A stretch of 64,000 bases of DNA from Halopseudomonas litoralis (GTDB lineage Bacteria > Pseudomonadota > Gammaproteobacteria > Pseudomonadales > Pseudomonadaceae): positions 1,674,001 through 1,738,000 of the forward strand of contig NZ_LT629748.1 in the NCBI RefSeq assembly GCF_900105005.1, given 5' to 3'. The position numbers and the translations under genes were made by a program. The notes under the pieces are model-generated. The model worked only from the letters and a program-made list of their open reading frames with translations. It was not told where the DNA came from and did no database searches. Below, piece after piece: positions 2,828-12,746 of this stretch (its first letter is position 1; the number at the start of each line of letters is the position of its first letter).

Positions 2828-4084
2828 TTACATTGCAGCGATCAGGTCATCACCAAACTCGGAACACTTGCGCAGCGTGGCGCCATCCATCAAGCGTTCA
2901 AAGTCATAGGTAACCGTCTTGTTGGCGATAGCGCCTTCGGTACCCTTGATGATCAGGTCTGCAGCTTCTACCCAGCCCATGTGACGCAGCATCATTTCAG
3001 CGGACAGGATCAGTGAGCCCGGGTTCACTTTATCCTGGCCTGCGTACTTGGGGGCTGTGCCGTGGGTCGCTTCGAACATGCCGATCGAGTCGGACAGGTT
3101 GGCACCCGGTGCGATGCCGATGCCGCCCACTTCCGCGGCCAGCGCGTCGGACAGGTAGTCACCGTTCAGGTTCAGGGTAGCGATAACGTCATACTCGGCC
3201 GGGCGCAGCAGGATCTGTTGCAGCATGGCATCAGCAATGGCGTCTTTCACCACGATGTTCTTGCCGGTGTTGGGGTTCTTGAACTGCATCCACGGACCGC
3301 CGTCCAGCAGCTCGGCGCCGAACTCGTCACGAGCGACTTCATAGCCCCAATCCTTGAAGGCACCTTCGGTGAACTTCATGATGTTGCCCTTGTGCACGAT
3401 GGTCACAGAGCTGCGATCGTTGTCCACTGCATACTGCAGCGCTTGGCGAACCAGACGCTTGGTGCCTTCCTGGGAAACCGGCTTGACGCCGATACCGCAG
3501 TTTTCAGTGAAGCGGATCTTGGTAACACCCATTTCCTCGGTGAGGAACTTGATTACCTTCTCGGCTTCCGGGGAGCCAGCCTTCCACTCAACGCCAGCGT
3601 AGATGTCTTCGGAGTTTTCACGGAAGATCACCATATCAACGTCGCCGGGGTTCTTGACCGGGCTAGGTACGCCGGTGAACCAGCGCACTGGGCGCTGACA
3701 GACATACAGGTCCAGCTGTTGACGCAGAGCAACGTTCAGGGAACGGATGCCTCCGCCTACCGGTGTGGTCAGCGGGCCTTTGATGGAAACGACGTAGTCC
3801 TTGACTGCGTGCAGGGTTTCTTCAGGGAGCCAGGTGTCCTGGTCGTAGACCTGAGTGGCCTTTTCGCCGGCGAAGACTTCCATCCAGGAAATCTTGCGCT
3901 TGCCACCGTAGGCTTTTTCCACGGCTGCATCGACGACTTTCATCATGACCGGGGAAATATCAACGCCGATACCATCGCCTTCGATAAAAGGGATGATCGG
4001 GTTGTCAGGAACATTCAGGGAAAGGTCGGCGTTAACGGTGATTTTGTCGCCGCTTGCCGGCACCTGGATCTTTTGGTATCCCAT
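2828..4084 (-). CDS. icd: NADP-dependent isocitrate dehydrogenase
   Basis: Icd oxidatively decarboxylates isocitrate to 2-oxoglutarate in the TCA cycle and competes with AceA, encoded near 11-12.7 kb, for isocitrate. The 418-residue length fits the dimeric E. coli-type enzyme. Visible features are the N-terminal IEGDGIG, the segment RSLNVALRQ holding the serine that AceK phosphorylates in relatives, the metal-binding NLNGDYLSD region, and [17 protein letters not shown], whose Lys-Tyr pair marks NADP specificity. In P. aeruginosa a monomeric idh lies beside icd; none is present here. Two RccR-like palindromes lie upstream, at 4171-4185 and 4275-4289. Confidence 0.97.
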
Positions 4085-4170
4085 TTTTGACTCCGTTGTG
4101 TGTCGTTGTCAGTGAAGATCCGGATGATTGACCCGGATCGGAAGAATACGGTTCTGGTGGACCGCATTGT

Positions 4171-4185
4171 TGTAGTTTTCCTACA
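4171..4185. promoter_or_regulatory. RccR-type 15-bp operator, icd-proximal
   Basis: TGTAGT, three bases, then CCTACA: one mismatch from the TGTAGT-N3-ACTACA palindrome reported as the short RccR site in Pseudomonas. It is 87 bases upstream of the icd start. HexR, a close relative of RccR, is the main alternative binder. Confidence 0.55.
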
Positions 4186-4274
4186 TAAAGTCACGTACTT
4201 TCTATCTGTGTCTGGCTTTCCACCGCAGAAAACTGCCTATCGAGGGCCGTCTACCGGAGATGACCGGAAGGTTT

Positions 4275-4289
4275 TGTAGTGAGACTACA
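4275..4289. promoter_or_regulatory. RccR-type 15-bp operator, perfect palindrome
   Basis: TGTAGT-GAG-ACTACA matches the short RccR operator exactly, and a further ACTACA half-site lies at 4295-4300. It sits in the 360-base divergent region between icd and nudJ, 191 bases upstream of icd and 156 upstream of nudJ, so either gene could be the target. The second site nearer icd favours icd. I see nothing else recognisable in this intergenic stretch apart from the nudJ ribosome-binding site. Confidence 0.6.
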
Positions 4290-4444
4290 TTTGCACTACA
4301 GCCTTCTGCGTCACAGCTTATGGCGGCTCCTGCCATCCTAGTCTTTTTCTACTCCAAATCCAGCCCCAGTCGCAATAGACCAACGAGGCATTCACCAGGC
4401 CCGCCGTTTACGGTAACCTATCGGGCCTGAATCAGGAGTCCTTC

Positions 4445-4879
4445 ATGCGCTTTTTACCCCACGTTACCGTCGCCACCATCGTTGAAGATCAAGGGCGGTT
4501 TCTCATGGTTGAGGAAGTCAGCCACGGCCGTGTCGTATTCAATCAGCCTGCCGGGCATTTGGAAGCCGACGAAAGTCTTATAGAAGCCGCCCGGCGCGAA
4601 ACGCTGGAAGAAACCGCCTGGACAGTTGAGATAACCGGGCTTACCGGCGTTTATCTGTTTCGCGGCGAGAACGGCGTCACCTATCAGCGCACCTGCTTTA
4701 CCGCACTGCCGGTGGCGCATCAGCCAGACCTGACGCTGGATGAAGGCATCCTCTGTGCCCACTGGCTGACACTCGATGAGATCGAGGCCAGACGGGCCGA
4801 GTTGCGCAGCCCGATGGTGCTGGAGTGTATTTTCGATTACCTGAATAAACCGCGGTATCCACTGGATCTGATTCGTTGA
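4445..4879 (+). CDS. nudJ: Nudix hydrolase, NudJ-like (nucleoside tri/diphosphatase)
   Basis: This 144-residue Nudix hydrolase has its Nudix box at residues 37-59, reading [20 protein letters not shown] with Ala where the final Gly of the consensus is usual. E. coli NudJ hydrolyses nucleoside tri- and diphosphates and HMP pyrophosphate. The order nudJ-mnmA-hflD-purB is the same in E. coli and Pseudomonas, which supports the name. AGGAG precedes the start. It ends one base before the mnmA ATG, so the two are translationally close. Confidence 0.88.
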
Positions 4880-4880
4880 G

Positions 4881-6008
4881 ATGAATATTCAAGCCAAAAC
4901 ACCCAGCCAGACCCGGGTTATCGTCGGCATGTCCGGCGGGGTCGACTCCTCCGTCTCTGCAGCTCTTCTCCTTGAACAAGGCTATCAAGTGGAAGGTTTG
5001 TTCATGAAGAACTGGGATGAGGACGACGGCACCGAATACTGCACCGCCATGGACGATCTGGCGGACGCGCAGGCGGTGAGTGATCGGCTGGGCATCAAGC
5101 TGCATACGGCGAACTTTGCCGCCGAGTATTGGGATAATGTGTTTGAACACTTCCTGGAAGAATACAAGGCTGGCCGCACCCCGAACCCCGATATCCTCTG
5201 TAACCGGGAAATCAAGTTCAAGGCGTTTCTCGACTACGCTCTGATGCTGGGCGCAGATCTGATCGCCACCGGACACTACACCCGCCGCGCCGATCGCGCT
5301 GGTCAGACACTGCTGCTGCGCGGTGTGGATACCAACAAGGACCAGAGCTACTTCCTGCATGCCGTCGGCGGCGAGCAGATTGCCCGCACACTGTTTCCCG
5401 TCGGTGAACTGGAGAAGCCTGAGGTCCGTCGTATCGCCGAGAAGTACCAACTGGCCACAGCGCGCAAGAAGGATTCCACCGGTATCTGTTTTATCGGTGA
5501 GCGGCGTTTCAGTGACTTTCTCAAGCAATACTTACCCGCCCAGCCCGGCGATATCGAAACCACCGACGGCCAGGTCATCGGCCGCCACCACGGCCTGATG
5601 TACCACACCATCGGTCAGCGTCAGGGCTTGGGGATTGGTGGCCTGCAAGGGGCAAATGACGATCCCTGGTATGTGCTGCGCAAGAACCTGGAACGTAATG
5701 TATTGATTGTCGGTCAGGGCAATGAACATCCCTGGCTGTTTTCCAGTGCATTGCGCTGCTCCGGAATATATTGGGTCAATCCCGTCGAGATTACCGAACC
5801 CATGCGACTGACGGCCAAGGTGCGCTATCGCCAAGCCGACCAAGCCTGCACCATCGAGCCCGCAGCAGACGGCTATCTGATCCGCTTCGATGAACCTCAG
5901 AGGGCGGTGACGCCCGGTCAGTCCGTGGTGCTGTATCAGGACGAAGTGTGCTTGGGCGGTGGCGTTATCGAACAGGCGATTCCCGCCTTTGAAGAGGGCG
6001 CCGCATGA
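4881..6008 (+). CDS. mnmA: tRNA-specific 2-thiouridylase MnmA
   Basis: MnmA adds sulfur to U34 of the tRNAs for Lys, Glu and Gln, using ATP activation and a persulfide. The 375-residue protein shows the PP-loop SGGVDSS near residue 18, catalytic Cys107 in NPDILCN, and the persulfide Cys203 in GICFIGE. Length and motifs match the bacterial family throughout. The stop overlaps the hflD start by four bases (ATGA), indicating translational coupling in a nudJ-mnmA-hflD unit. Confidence 0.97.
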
Positions 6009-6625
6009 CGCTTACAGAAGAACAGGTGTTGGCGCTGGGCGGGATATTCGAAGCGGCACTGCAGGTCGACAAGCTGGCCCGCAGCGGTCAATACAGCGAA
6101 GGCCCTGTCGGCTGTCTGATACAAAGCATCTTCGAGCGTTCACCGGATGACACCCTCGGTGTTTACGGCGGCTCTCACCACCAGATTCGCGGCGGACTGC
6201 AAGCCGTTGGCTCCATGCTCGATCGCGATACTGCAGCTCTGCAGCGGGACGCGCTGCGCTATGCGATGAATCTCATAGCGCTTGAACGGCAATTGGCCAA
6301 GCGCGACGACATGCTGGCCGTACTGGGTCAGCGGTTGGATCGCGCACAGCAGCAGATCGGTCATTTCGGATTGCTGCATGAGAATGTCATGGCTTCGCTG
6401 GGGAGTGCCTACCAGGACACCTTGAGCACGCTGCGCCTGCGCATCCAGGTGCATGGTGACATGCGTCATCTGCAGCAGCCAGACACCGCCAACCGCATCC
6501 GCGCCCTGCTGCTTGCCGGCATCCGCTCCGCGCGTTTGTGGCGGCAACTGGGCGGGCATCGCTGGCAGCTGCTGTTTTCCCGGGGCAAGCTGCTTGAAGC
6601 GACCCGAACAATCCTGAATAGCTGA
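6005..6625 (+). CDS. hflD: high-frequency lysogenization protein HflD homolog
   Basis: HflD is a peripheral inner-membrane protein, known in E. coli for binding lambda CII; its ordinary cellular role is unclear. The 206-residue, largely helical sequence and its position between mnmA and purB identify it. The N-terminal half has the family features [10 protein letters not shown] and the [14 protein letters not shown] region. It has no signal peptide and no obvious transmembrane segment. It overlaps mnmA by four bases. Confidence 0.93.
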
Positions 6626-6715
6626 CGGTCCGGTATAACATCGCCACGCTGGCCGGGCAGACCAAAGCCTCTCAGGATGGTGTATGATTTGCGGCTTTCA
6701 GCCAGCCTTTTATGA

Positions 6716-8095
<1,380 letters not shown>

Positions 8096-8103
8096 TCTGC
8101 GAT

Positions 8104-8130
8104 CCGCGCTCGGCTTCCTGCCGGGCGCGG
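8104..8130 (+). terminator. imperfect hairpin after purB
   Basis: CCGCGCTCGGC, a 5-base loop and GCCGGGCGCGG pair with one mismatch directly after the purB stop. The following GTCTGTTTGC is only mildly T-rich, so this may be a weak terminator or attenuator before roxA. Confidence 0.45.
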
Positions 8131-8182
8131 GTCTGTTTGCCCCTTGCTGTCCCTTCTGTAGCATTTTCATTCCGAGGCCATC

Positions 8183-9355
8183 ATGCCCTTCTCCGTCACC
8201 ACCCTGCCAGGCGGCATGTCCGCCGATGTATTTCTCCGGGATTACTGGCAGAAAAAGCCGCTGCTGATCCGCCAGGCGTTTCCAGACTTCGAAAACCCAT
8301 TGACGCCAGATGAGCTTGCCGGCCTGTCGCTGGAAGGCGAAGTGGAATCACGCATTGTCCTGGAACAGGGTGCGACGCCGTGGGAACTGCGCCATGGCCC
8401 TTTCGACGAAGACACCTACAAGACCCTGCCGGAAAAGGACTGGACGCTACTGGTACAAGCGGTGGACCAGTTCGTGCCTGAGGTCGCCGAGTTGCTGCAG
8501 GCGTTTCGCTTCTTACCCAACTGGCGAGTTGACGATGTGATGGTCAGCTATGCCGCGCCGGGCGGCAGCGTCGGCCCACATTACGACAACTACGATGTGT
8601 TCCTGTTGCAGGGTCACGGCCAACGGCGTTGGAAGGTCGGCCAACCCTGCAATCCTGATAGCCCCCTGCAGGAACATCCGGACCTGCGCATTCTCCGTGA
8701 TTTCGAGCAGCAGGAAGAGTGGGTTCTGAGGCCCGGCGACATGCTCTATCTGCCTCCAGGCCTGGCCCATTACGGCATCGCCGAAGATGACTGCATGACC
8801 TATTCGATCGGCTTCCGTGCCCCCAGCCATGCCGAAGTGCTTGCCCATTTCAGTGATTTTCTCGGTCAGTATCTGGGCGATCAGCAACGTTACAGCGATG
8901 CTGGAATGAGTACCCCTGACGACCCCGCACAAATCGACGAGCAGACTGTTGAGCGGCTGCAGAATCTCATTCTCGAGCTGGTGCACGACAAAGAGGCGCT
9001 AGGCACCTGGCTCGGACGCTTCATGACCGAGCCCCGCTATCCGGAGCTGATTGAAGCGCAGGAGCCTGACGAGGAAGTGCTGACCGAAGCACTGGATAAT
9101 GGATTTGGCCTGATACGCAATGCCAGCGCCCGGCTGGCTTGGCGCCAGGAGCAGGACCAATACCTGATGCTGTTTGCCTGCGGCGAACATTGCCTGCTAC
9201 CAACCCGTCTGCGACCACTGGTGCAACTGATCTGCAATCGGGAATACCTGGACGCAGATCAATTGCAGGATTGGCGTCAGGATGCCGAAGCCATGCAGTT
9301 GTTACAGCAGTTGCTAGCCAAGGGTGACCTGCTGCTGGAAGGTAACGATGAATGA
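8183..9355 (+). CDS. roxA: ribosomal oxygenase RoxA/YcfD, 50S L16 arginine hydroxylase
   Basis: RoxA is a JmjC/cupin-fold, Fe(II)- and 2-oxoglutarate-dependent oxygenase that hydroxylates an arginine of ribosomal protein L16 in E. coli. The 390-residue protein has the iron-binding triad visible as His133 and Asp135 in GPHYDNYD and His196 in PPGLAHYG. Winged-helix and dimerisation regions make up the C-terminal 150 residues. It lies between purB and a GNAT gene whose start overlaps its stop by 8 bases, so the two are coupled. Length and motifs are typical. Confidence 0.92.
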   Translation: MPFSVTTLPGGMSADVFLRDYWQKKPLLIRQAFPDFENPLTPDELAGLSLEGEVESRIVLEQGATPWELRHGPFDEDTYKTLPEKDWTLLVQAVDQFVPEVAELLQAFRFLPNWRVDDVMVSYAAPGGSVGPHYDNYDVFLLQGHGQRRWKVGQPCNPDSPLQEHPDLRILRDFEQQEEWVLRPGDMLYLPPGLAHYGIAEDDCMTYSIGFRAPSHAEVLAHFSDFLGQYLGDQQRYSDAGMSTPDDPAQIDEQTVERLQNLILELVHDKEALGTWLGRFMTEPRYPELIEAQEPDEEVLTEALDNGFGLIRNASARLAWRQEQDQYLMLFACGEHCLLPTRLRPLVQLICNREYLDADQLQDWRQDAEAMQLLQQLLAKGDLLLEGNDE

Positions 9356-9785
9356 AGTCGACATCCGTGTGGCGGAGTGGCGCAGTACCAACGCGCTGCG
9401 TGACATCCGCCAGACGGTATTCATCGACGAGCAACATGTGCCGCCGGAGTTGGAATGGGACGCAGAAGACGCGCGCGCGACGCACTTTCTGCTGACTGTT
9501 GAGCACGCACCGGTCGGCACCGCCCGTTTGCTACCGGATGGGCACATCGGCCGCGTCGCCCTTCTCTCCCAGGCCCGCAGCAAGGGCCTGGGCCAGCAGT
9601 TGATGCGCGCCGTCATGGCCTACGCCCGGCAACAGGGTATGGCGCGCCTGCAGCTTTCAGCGCAAACGCATGCCCTCGGCTTCTATAGCCAACTGGGCTT
9701 CGTCACCTGCTCGAATGTCTATCCCGAGGCCGGCATTCCCCATCAGGACATGAGCTGGGAGCCAGCAACCTCCGACCCCAGCTGA
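9348..9785 (+). CDS. GNAT family N-acetyltransferase
   Basis: This 145-residue single-domain GNAT enzyme transfers an acetyl group from acetyl-CoA to an unknown amine. It has the N-terminal VFIDEQHVPPELEWD segment seen in ElaA/YitI-like proteins, strand 4 with IGRVALLSQ, and the pyrophosphate-binding loop read as RSKGLGQQLM near residues 80-88. It ends with the GFYSQLGF segment. The start at 9348 follows GGAAGG and lies inside the end of roxA. P. aeruginosa carries a GNAT gene in the same stretch upstream of aceA. The substrate cannot be told from sequence. Confidence 0.88.
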   Translation: MNEVDIRVAEWRSTNALRDIRQTVFIDEQHVPPELEWDAEDARATHFLLTVEHAPVGTARLLPDGHIGRVALLSQARSKGLGQQLMRAVMAYARQQGMARLQLSAQTHALGFYSQLGFVTCSNVYPEAGIPHQDMSWEPATSDPS

Positions 9786-9872
9786 CACCTGCTGCCCTGG
9801 CGCGAAGACAGCCGCCCGCGCACAGGTCACTTCAGATGCTAAACTCAGGTTCGGTAACGAGGAGATCGCGCC

Positions 9873-10694
9873 ATGAACCTGCGAACCATGCTGGCAACGC
9901 TTGTCACTCTCGCGCTTGCCATCTGTTCTCTCCAGCTCGCTGCAGCGCCGAGAACCGAAGTCATTCCTCTGGGCTACAGCATGGCAGAAGACATGGTGCC
10001 GGTAATACAGCCCATGCTCCGCGCTGACGAACGCGTTTCCGCCTACGGCAATCAGTTGATCATCCGTGCCGAACCAGAGCGGCTGCAGGAGATTCGCGTA
10101 TTGCTTGCGGATCTTGATCGCCAGCCGGCAAAATTGCGTATCACGGTCAGCAACGCCGGCAGCGCGCTTGGCACCCAGAGTGGTTATCGTTTGGACGGAC
10201 GCCTGGAGACCGGCTCCGGCGATATCGTCGTCGGCCACGCCCGTGGCAACAACCAGGCCCGTATCATCCGCCGCGAAACCCGCGGCGCGAGTGATGGCGC
10301 GCGGGTGATCACTGCCAACGAAGGCTATCCCGTGCTGATCCAGACAGGTCAACGGGTTCCTCTGACCAGCACCTCAACCAATATCTACGGCCAAGTGGTC
10401 AATCAGACCGAATACCATGATGTGACCTCCGGCTTCTATGCCACCGTACGCCTGAGCGGCGACGTCGCAACCATCAGCCTGAGCGCCAATAATGATCGGA
10501 TGCATCCCGCCGGGAATGATGTGATCGATGTGCAACGAACCGACACCGTCGTCACCGCGCGCTTGGGTGAGTGGGTCACCATCGGTGGCTTCGATGATAC
10601 TGAAAGCCAGCGCAGACGAGACATAGGCAGGCGCACTACCACCCGCAGCTCACAACAACAGAGCGTTCGCTTGATGATTGAGCGCCTCGATTAG
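9873..10694 (+). CDS. short secretin-like periplasmic/outer-membrane protein, function unknown
   Basis: The 273-residue protein has a signal peptide (cleavage near Ala24-Ala25). Residues 28-90 then resemble a secretin N-domain: the PLGYSMAEDMVPVIQPML repeat, a central YGNQLIIRA strand, and VLLADLDRQPAKL. The C-terminal half, with a TVVTARLGEWVTIGGF segment and a Ser/Gln-rich tail, resembles the end of the secretin core, but the full barrel and gates are too long to fit in it. No pilus or secretion genes flank it. It may be a stand-alone secretin-domain protein conserved in Pseudomonas; I assign no function. A plausible ribosome-binding site (GAGGAGA) precedes the ATG. Confidence 0.75.
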   Translation: MNLRTMLATLVTLALAICSLQLAAAPRTEVIPLGYSMAEDMVPVIQPMLRADERVSAYGNQLIIRAEPERLQEIRVLLADLDRQPAKLRITVSNAGSALGTQSGYRLDGRLETGSGDIVVGHARGNNQARIIRRETRGASDGARVITANEGYPVLIQTGQRVPLTSTSTNIYGQVVNQTEYHDVTSGFYATVRLSGDVATISLSANNDRMHPAGNDVIDVQRTDTVVTARLGEWVTIGGFDDTESQRRRDIGRRTTTRSSQQQSVRLMIERLD

Positions 10695-10708
10695 GCTTTG
10701 TTGGAGTT

Positions 10709-10736
10709 TTGTAGTGTTTTATTAATTTCACTACAA
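10709..10736. promoter_or_regulatory. RccR-type 28-bp operator upstream of aceA
   Basis: TTGTAGTG, a 12-base AT-rich linker and CACTACAA form a perfect 8-bp-arm palindrome of 28 bases, the length I recall for the aceA RccR site in Pseudomonas. It ends 5 bases before the -35 of a sigma-70 promoter. Confidence 0.65.
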
Positions 10737-10741
10737 TGACA

Positions 10742-10770
10742 TTGACTTCTGTTTTCTTAAACTGCATTAT
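10742..10770 (+). promoter_or_regulatory. predicted sigma-70 promoter of aceA
   Basis: TTGACT at 10742-10747, a 17-base spacer and CATTAT at 10765-10770. Transcription from about 10777 would give aceA a leader of roughly 370 bases. I see no known riboswitch in that leader; it has small stem-loops only, and no convincing gene. Confidence 0.6.
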
Positions 10771-11150
10771 TGCCCCGCTCCCGCTAGCCAGAGCCCCTTA
10801 ACAGGGTCTCCGGATGTTTGCCTGAACCTAAGGCAGCATCTGTGTCTTAACAGCCCACAAGGCAGTTCGACGAGGTTGCGACTGGAACGAAGTTGTCCTG
10901 AGGGACGGGGAAGCGATTTAAACGTAGCAGCTTGCATGACCCGGAAGTGGTTGCATGTTCTGCCGAGCCAATCAGCTTGGGCAAAGTGCGCCAACCAGCT
11001 CATCGACTGTTCGTCACTCTCCTATCTTCATGTCATTCTTCAATTCAGTCACTGTTTCGACGCACTGCGGAGTGCCGCAACCCAGGCTCTGGCTGGTGGG
11101 TTCGGGGTCGACTAACGTCAGAACCAAACGCAAACTTTGAAGGATTGACC

Positions 11151-12746
11151 ATGTCAGCATATCAGAACGATATCAAAGCAGTTGCCGCGCTCAAAGAAAC
11201 CGCCGGTAACGGCTGGAACGCCATCAACCCGGAATCCGTGGCACGCATGCGTGCACAGAACCGCTTCCAGACCGGTCTGGATATCGCCAAGTACACCGCT
11301 GCTATCATGCGCAAGGATATGGCTGAATACGACGCCGATTCGTCTGTTTACACTCAGTCTCTGGGCTGCTGGCACGGTTTCATCGGCCAACAGAAGCTGA
11401 TCTCCATCAAGAAGCACCTGAAAACCACCAACAAACGCTACCTGTACCTGTCCGGCTGGATGGTTGCTGCCCTGCGCTCCGAGTTCGGCCCCCTGCCCGA
11501 CCAGTCCATGCACGAGAAGACCGCCGTTTCCGGCCTGATCGAAGAGCTCTACACCTTCCTGCGCCAGGCTGATGCCCGCGAACTGGATCTGCTGTTCACT
11601 GCTCTGGACGAAGCACGCGCTGCAGGCAACACTGCCAAGGCAGAAGAAATCCAGGCTCAGGTCGACAACTTCGAAACTCACGTTGTGCCGATCATCGCCG
11701 ATATCGATGCCGGTTTCGGTAACGCCGAAGCTACCTACCTGCTGGCCAAGCAGATGATCGAAGCGGGTGCATGCTGCATCCAGATCGAGAACCAGGTTTC
11801 TGATGAGAAGCAGTGCGGTCACCAGGACGGCAAGGTAACAGTTCCGCATTCCGACTTCCTGGCCAAGATCAACGCTGTTCGCTACGCGTTCCTCGAGCTG
11901 GGCGTGGACGACGGTGTTATCGTTGCCCGTACCGACTCCCTGGGCGCTGGCCTGACCAAGCAGATCGCTGTCACCAACGAGCCAGGTGACCTGGGCGACC
12001 TGTATAACGGTTTCCTGGATGGTGATTACATCGAGAATGCCGACGCCATCGAGAACGGTGACGTGGTCATCAAGGCCAACGGCAAGCTGCTCAAGCCCAA
12101 GCGCCTGGCTTCCGGTCTGTTCCAGTTCCGCAAGGACACCGGCATCGACCGCGTTGTGCTGGATTGCATCACTTCCCTGCAACACGGCGCCGACCTGCTG
12201 TGGATCGAAACCGAGAAGCCGCACGTTGGCCAGATCGCCGAGATGGTCAACCGTATCCGCGAAGTGGTTCCGAATGCCAAGCTGGTTTACAACAACAGCC
12301 CGTCCTTCAACTGGACGCTGAACTTCCGTCAGCAGGTATTCGACGCCATGGTTGAAGAAGGCAAGGATGTTTCCGCCTACGACCGTGCCGGCCTGATGAG
12401 CATCGAGTACGACGAGACTGAACTGGCCCAGCTGGCTGACGAGAAGATCCGCACCTTCCAGGCTGATGCAGCCCGTGAAGCCGGTATCTTCCACCACCTG
12501 ATCACCTTGCCGACTTACCACACTGCCGCACTGTCTACCGACAACCTGGCAAAAGGGTACTTCGACAAGGAAGGCATGCTGGCCTACGTGAAAGGTGTTC
12601 AGCGTCAGGAGATCCGTCAGGGTATCGCCTGCGTCAAGCACCAGAACATGGCTGGCTCCGATCTTGGTGATAACCATAAAGAGTACTTCGCTGGCGAAGC
12701 TGCACTGAAAGCTGGCGGTAAAGACAACACCATGAACCAGTTCTGA
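11151..12746 (+). CDS. aceA: isocitrate lyase
   Basis: AceA cleaves isocitrate to glyoxylate and succinate, the first step of the glyoxylate shunt used on acetate and fatty acids. The 531-residue protein is of the longer Pseudomonas type, and its catalytic cysteine is Cys222 in KQCGHQ. Metal- and substrate-binding segments ADIDAGFGN and VYNNSPSFNW are present. The start at 11151 follows AAGGA. An in-frame upstream extension to 10932 exists but lacks family similarity and would include non-coding leader. Regulation is likely through the 28-bp RccR-type palindrome upstream. Confidence 0.97.
   Translation: MSAYQNDIKAVAALKETAGNGWNAINPESVARMRAQNRFQTGLDIAKYTAAIMRKDMAEYDADSSVYTQSLGCWHGFIGQQKLISIKKHLKTTNKRYLYLSGWMVAALRSEFGPLPDQSMHEKTAVSGLIEELYTFLRQADARELDLLFTALDEARAAGNTAKAEEIQAQVDNFETHVVPIIADIDAGFGNAEATYLLAKQMIEAGACCIQIENQVSDEKQCGHQDGKVTVPHSDFLAKINAVRYAFLELGVDDGVIVARTDSLGAGLTKQIAVTNEPGDLGDLYNGFLDGDYIENADAIENGDVVIKANGKLLKPKRLASGLFQFRKDTGIDRVVLDCITSLQHGADLLWIETEKPHVGQIAEMVNRIREVVPNAKLVYNNSPSFNWTLNFRQQVFDAMVEEGKDVSAYDRAGLMSIEYDETELAQLADEKIRTFQADAAREAGIFHHLITLPTYHTAALSTDNLAKGYFDKEGMLAYVKGVQRQEIRQGIACVKHQNMAGSDLGDNHKEYFAGEAALKAGGKDNTMNQF

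Follow-up and report, generated by a model that had tools for sequence, protein, structure and literature searches.

A candidate RccR target at the icd promoter of Halopseudomonas litoralis and of relatives that lack monomeric isocitrate dehydrogenase

INTRODUCTION

The closest described counterpart of the locus reported here is the RccR regulon of Pseudomonas fluorescens and P. aeruginosa, in which 2-keto-3-deoxy-6-phosphogluconate (KDPG) makes RccR bind less tightly at aceE and more tightly at aceA and glcB (PMC10810197, PMC5489143). In those sections of the reports on which we draw, the crystal structure shows an RccR tetramer (PMC10810197), there are signs of cooperative binding and of bending at the pair of aceE sites, the named targets are aceEF, aceA, glcB, pntAA, pckA, gap, PFLU2154 and rccR, RccR sites in Pseudomonas genomes lie in every case upstream of that regulon's genes, and the authors propose constant repression for a composite site at P. 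fluorescens rccR (PMC5489143). Here, we analyse a window of 64,000 nucleotides from Halopseudomonas litoralis (NZ_LT629748.1, positions 1,674,001 to 1,738,000; a one-contig genome of 3,987,842 bases), in which RccR-type operators precede both icd, the gene for NADP-dependent isocitrate dehydrogenase (ICD), and aceA, the gene for isocitrate lyase.

The terms isocitrate dehydrogenase, icd and idh appear only in the introduction and reference list of PMC5489143 and are absent from PMC10810197 and PMC6922535. Searches confined to open papers turned up no account of icd as a target of RccR, and the initial annotation of this DNA did not count icd among the established ones. The activity of the dimeric P. 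aeruginosa isocitrate dehydrogenase is lowered by phosphorylation, according to the cited part of PMC10574006.

RESULTS

A composite distal operator and a core box precede icd

A motif scan recovers the three operators that the initial annotation had placed in the window, two upstream of icd and one upstream of aceA (Table 1). The distal icd site is an exact operator of the 15-bp class that has its left half in common with an exact 28-bp-class core, and is thus a composite of both RccR operator classes, with the 15-bp site inside the 28-bp site; in the icd sense it reads TGTAGT-N5-TGTAGT-N3-ACTACA. The second site, termed the core box, reads TGTAGTTTTCCTACA on the forward strand, carries one mismatch, and lies within the spacer of GTGACT-17-AA[C/G]AAT, which we read as the putative icd core promoter. 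Because the distal site is composite and the promoter-like core is covered by the weaker copy, the initial description of icd as a plain short-type target does not hold.

A scan of the whole genome for TGTAGT-N0..24-ACTACA, which reports one match per start and may leave a longer overlapping match hidden, returns five places, every one of them spaced by N3 or N14 (icd, aceA, rccR and two at aceE), against six places for the reversed motif over all 25 gaps together. Exact sites number two for N14 (icd and aceA) and four for N3, and sites with one mismatch number none for N14 and two for N3, including the icd core box. Sites with at most two mismatches are rarer than in the reversed control (47 versus 91 for N14, 52 versus 221 for N3), and we therefore give weight to exact or nearly exact sites only. 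The mismatch-tolerant scans covered the spacings N3 and N14.

The icd operators are nearly exclusive with idh

To place the sites among relatives, we scanned 500–600 bp upstream of icd at named and unnamed loci and merged loci with identical icd and equal idh state into 201 rows, where idh is the gene for monomeric isocitrate dehydrogenase (IDH). The icd-locus search of relatives covers the 80 best loci out of at least 589, among which the Halopseudomonas pertucinogena counterpart is 97 percent identical to the H. litoralis protein. With five rows from outside Pseudomonadaceae left out, the distal operator is present in 73 of 86 idh-less rows and in 1 of 110 idh-bearing rows; the lone exception (L304) has a single one-mismatch N3 match at −263. 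A Fisher value for this association ignores kinship. In most idh-less relatives, the distal site combines N3 with N14 or N15. The initial annotation had asked whether related genomes keep the icd sites, and the answer is split: they are conserved in idh-less lineages and missing at nearly all idh-bearing loci, which makes them a lineage-specific trait, not a Pseudomonas-wide one.

It is hardly credible that the icd sites are chance palindromes. At least two N3 matches do arise in 12 of 100 shuffles of the window, and the window is therefore weak evidence by itself; however, the site is kept at the same place in 73 of the 86 idh-less rows, and base-shuffled icd upstream regions yield a distal match in only 3 of 4020 cases.

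Among 398 Pseudomonadaceae genomes, idh is found in 316, and the remaining 82 are those without a match in the idh search. The H. litoralis genome, read directly, belongs to the latter, icd being the sole isocitrate dehydrogenase found in it. All 80 of the idh-less genomes that were searched (of 82, with G171 left out) have icd. In 80 chosen idh-bearing genomes, icd is detected at E 1e-100 in 54 and not in 26, a fraction that is not a rate, since the set is non-random and 22 of its members were picked for having no icd seen beside idh; the icd region was examined in 50 of the 54 two-enzyme genomes. The genomes examined thus form three classes, with ICD only, with ICD and monomeric IDH, and with IDH only.

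Two further readings were rejected. Relocation of idh in genomes without idh beside icd was seen in 0 of 21, and loss of AceK with transcriptional control in its place is contradicted by the presence of aceK in 47 of 48 ICD-only and 20 of 20 two-enzyme genomes. Overall, aceK tracks ICD: it occurs in 67 of the 68 ICD-bearing genomes chosen and in 0 of 12 IDH-only genomes, and H. litoralis has it. Likewise rejected was RccR control of idh in IDH-only genomes, in which a site occurs at 0 of 22 loci (640 bp upstream).

Outside the family, Balneatrix alpica (L053), one of the five rows excluded from the count, is idh-less, has an RccR-like gene (59 percent identity), and carries an exact 15-bp site before icd at −95.

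Apparent joint exchange of promoter and isozyme

The gene order icd-(idh)-NUDIX-mnmA-purB is common to most named loci, and in named relatives with idh this gene sits between icd and the NUDIX gene. Among the named loci, icd and the NUDIX start are 280–408 bp apart where idh is missing and mostly 2.7–3.3 kb apart where it is present. In all 106 loci with idh detected adjacent, idh is divergent from icd at a distance of 351–552 bp. At the two ends of the promoter alignment, no relatedness is apparent between the icd promoters of idh-bearing and of idh-less loci; TGCGTGAC is present in 52 of 91 idh-less rows and in 0 of 110 idh-bearing ones. From this dissimilarity and this distribution, promoter and isozyme seem to have been exchanged jointly, and more than once.

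The exclusion between operator and idh could then result merely from idh moving together with the intergenic DNA, with no selection on icd control, an explanation that is quite possible though short of an even chance. The fixed divergent arrangement of idh, in the very interval where the promoter differs, and the unrelated promoters are what it would predict, and among the genomes examined we saw no idh-bearing one with idh elsewhere and icd without operators. However, such co-movement leaves the conservation and phasing of the boxes in idh-less lineages unexplained. It is compatible with RccR control of icd in the window itself, and the data do not separate selection from simple mechanics for the icd/idh exchange.

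The two boxes keep helical phase

In 65 loci, most box positions of the core box block AAAgTGCGTGACtTTcTGTAG[A/G]AAAACTACAA[G/C]AAT carry close to 2 bits, compared with 0–0.3 bits in the DNA upstream of the block. The distance from the core box to the distal 15-bp site, in 60 loci, is 92–94 bp (30 loci), 103–105 bp (21), 113–114 bp (8) or 154 bp (1), with nothing between, and the spacing class shifts at least eight times on the icd tree (FastTree, one gene, unrooted). For the box spacing, the phase vector length at 10.25 bp is 0.93; over these 60 rows, the distance to the NUDIX start gives 0.39. All four class centres are matched in phase by 33 of 20,000 random sets, and the first three by 282, the centres having been picked after the data were seen. 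The spacing classes lie one helical turn apart, as would suit RccR binding cooperatively or through a loop to a single face of the helix.

The same measurements bear on whether the distal composite serves the divergent NUDIX gene, with the core box alone, or nothing, acting on icd. The distal site lies 145 bp upstream of the NUDIX start in the window, which speaks for such a role, but across loci this distance runs from 96 to 184 bp, whereas the distal-core spacing is confined to helical-turn classes, and we regard a NUDIX operator as very unlikely.

Table 1. Features of the icd and aceA regions, in window coordinates
Feature	Position	Strand	Sequence or size	Basis
icd, NADP-dependent isocitrate dehydrogenase	2828..4084	-	418 aa	NF005425 793 bits, TIGR00183 737 bits, both above cut-off
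icd promoter-like core (icd sense)	4166..4194	-	GTGACT 4189-4194, 17-bp spacer, AACAAT 4166-4171	context AAAgTGCGTGACtTTcTGTAGnAAAACTACAAnAAT kept in 65 loci
icd core box, 15-bp class, within core spacer	4171..4185	-	icd sense TGTAGGAAAACTACA, 1 mismatch	motif scan
icd distal operator, exact 15-bp class	4275..4289	.	TGTAGT-N3-ACTACA, TGTAGTGAGACTACA, 0 mismatches	motif scan
icd distal operator, exact 28-bp class core	4275..4300	.	TGTAGT-N14-ACTACA	motif scan
Divergent NUDIX-domain gene	4445..4879	+		PF00293 55.8 bits
aceA operator, 28-bp class, 8-bp arms	10709..10736	+	TTGTAGTG-N12-CACTACAA	motif scan
aceA promoter-like pair, just after operator	10742..10770	+	TTGACT-17-CATTAT	consensus match only
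aceA, isocitrate lyase	11151..12746	+	531 aa	NF005074 1055 bits, above cut-off

The genome encodes an RccR ortholog and the enzymes for KDPG

The initial annotation had suggested searching for an rccR homolog and for operators before aceE, and both are present. The genome has a single HTH_6 (RpiR) gene, of 291 aa, whose product matches 8K3B, the P. aeruginosa RccR-KDPG complex, with 463 bits across residues 1–284 and is thus an RccR ortholog. Of the nine KDPG contacts given in the part of PMC10810197 that describes this complex, seven are identical and two, S185T and S188T, are conservative; the same two Ser-to-Thr changes occur in all seven Halopseudomonas-type rccR loci (this one included) and in Balneatrix, whose RccR-like protein additionally has Arg in place of Lys 270. 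Orthologs outside Halopseudomonas are 59–78 percent identical to the H. litoralis protein. In all, 30 of 31 searched genomes yielded an rccR ortholog. Upstream of aceE (TIGR00759, 766 bits over 453 residues, under the full-length cut-off) lie two exact 15-bp sites, and upstream of rccR one.

No match to a second RpiR-type gene was found in the H. litoralis genome, and HexR-like second matches, present in 14 of the 31 searched genomes, are 40–43 percent identical to its RccR ortholog. Membership of the regulator in the HexR clade was rejected, since its nearest relative is RccR and the HexR-like paralogs are only this similar. The NCBIfam HexR model nevertheless matches the ortholog (L006, 1498–2373) with 309.9 bits, above its cut-off of 296; the label fails to tell RccR from HexR, and automatic annotation may therefore mislabel RccR as HexR.

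The edd gene (919 bits, above cut-off) and a 2-keto-4-hydroxyglutarate/KDPG aldolase gene (eda-type) form one cluster and, with zwf also present, KDPG should be formed; the reading that the Entner–Doudoroff pathway is missing was rejected accordingly. The 94-bp interval from which zwf and rccR diverge (L115, 8507–8600, own genome) contains one exact 15-bp site, so that zwf may likewise be under RccR control in this genome, where no HexR-like gene was found.

The aceA leader and other sites in the genome

Approximately 380 bases (10771–11150) separate the aceA promoter-like pair from the aceA start, a long stretch that resembles the long aceA leader of P. aeruginosa, as given in the portion of PMC6922535 used here.

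For glcB, pckA, gap and pntAA, genes that were not located, the genome scan gave no candidate, since N14 sites with at most one mismatch were confined to those at icd and aceA. Of the 45 N14 sites with two mismatches, 44 were examined; 8 of them lie outside open reading frames of at least 200 aa, and no recognisable neighbour is one of these four genes. One two-mismatch N14 site (L020, 1501–1526; own genome 966038–966063) lies 212 bp upstream of the citrate synthase gene gltA and may be there by chance, given counts under the control. Another (L331, own genome near 2836147) lies between a gene for a GntR-type regulator, PdhR/LldR-like and under cut-off, and a divergent transporter-like open reading frame.

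DISCUSSION

The two enzymes that draw on isocitrate in competition, isocitrate dehydrogenase and isocitrate lyase, are probably both under the control of a single sugar-sensing regulator in this bacterium. On balance, we favour the view that RccR acts directly on the icd promoter, as a lineage-specific target, and lowers icd when KDPG is low, opposite to its effect on aceA; for icd, we infer RccR binding, cooperativity or looping, the ligand effect and the direction of control from DNA sequence. Specifically, the distal composite would offer RccR two registers, a 15-bp one that is tight without KDPG and a 28-bp one that KDPG tightens, and RccR bound there would cooperate, perhaps via a loop, with RccR on the weaker core box on the same helix face. 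Because the core box is of the 15-bp class, low KDPG should tip icd towards repression and leave aceA free, and high KDPG should do the opposite. At low KDPG, RccR would keep the core box and icd transcription would be lowered; with KDPG present, RccR would quit the core box, may remain at the distal site, and would repress aceA. The distal composite may in this way hold RccR nearby in both ligand states.

The direction proposed here agrees with that of the initial annotation, whose prediction of icd being switched off is too strong: icd is the only isocitrate dehydrogenase found and, since idh is absent and aceK is kept, a graded lowering is expected, not a shut-off. RccR control would then form a transcriptional layer atop AceK for this enzyme. 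In its most specific form, which we offer as possible but rather doubtful, the model has an RccR tetramer bridging the distal composite and the core box, KDPG shifting the distal site from the 15-bp to the 28-bp register so that icd opens and aceA closes, and Pseudomonadaceae lineages exchanging this promoter for a second isocitrate dehydrogenase.

Several observations weigh against RccR-dependent switching of icd. A composite site that retains RccR with and without KDPG could mean that there is no switch, only steady damping of icd in both ligand states. Constant repression is what was proposed for the composite at rccR, and a constant supply is plausible for an enzyme that seems to be the sole isocitrate dehydrogenase; however, the core box is purely of the 15-bp class, so that KDPG should affect it as it does aceE, and we consider steady damping unlikely. 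A promoter scan did not call the putative icd core promoter, and the weaker core box keeps a constant mismatch. The distal site is lacking in 13 of the 86 idh-less rows (Ventosimonas, Denitrificimonas, and rows of the genera g2, g6, g12, g14, g15, g18 and g19), of which those of g2 and g14 retain the core box; conversely, six g18 rows have a distal site and no core box, and most g18 rows have a distal N14 without a core box. The metagenome-assembled genome G005 has the icd sites and only a weak rccR match, perhaps through incompleteness. Finally, the icd tree implies at least 12 idh changes and 13 operator changes, and in seven supported independent pairs differing in idh the operator differs in the opposite sense in 4–5, in the same sense in 0, and not at all in 2–3, so that the independent-pairs test is consistent in direction and underpowered (median p 0.0625).

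What would be new in RccR control of icd is that the target is lineage-specific, couples a composite distal operator to a core box in helical phase with it, and is nearly exclusive with idh. If it is correct, one metabolite and one regulator set both sides of the isocitrate branch, and the RccR regulon extends to a tricarboxylic acid cycle gene beyond the reach of work on P. fluorescens and P. aeruginosa: two-enzyme species lack the site by this pattern, and an icd target could therefore not show there. Furthermore, one regulated enzyme versus two enzymes would be a repeated exchange at one locus, with regulation and isozyme as alternative answers to the same branch-point problem. The helical-turn spacing makes the loop model directly testable.

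Compared with known systems, the locus shares with the RccR regulon of P. fluorescens SBW25 and P. aeruginosa PAO1 the regulator, the half-sites and the 15- and 28-bp spacings, as set out in the cited parts of PMC5489143, PMC10810197 and PMC6922535, together with the 28-bp site at aceA, the paired 15-bp sites at aceE and the 15-bp site at rccR. It differs in the composite distal site and core box at icd, which is not among the printed targets, and in that exact sites in the H. litoralis genome occur at icd, aceA, aceE and rccR only. The distal operator is built like the composite 15-in-28 operator at rccR described in PMC5489143, in which a third half-site added to TGTAGT-N3-ACTACA gives N14 or N15. 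A composite is found at 22 of 30 rccR loci, that is, at 22 of the 23 that are not of Halopseudomonas type, whereas all seven Halopseudomonas-type loci (L118–L124, that of H. litoralis included) keep just the 15-bp site at rccR and have a composite at icd instead, about 94, 104 or 114 bp from the core box. HexR belongs to the same RpiR family and has the same ligand, but its operator, as printed in PMC5489143, is TTGT-N7-8-ACAA. AceK acts at the same branch point, but by phosphorylation, whereas the operators at icd would act on transcription.

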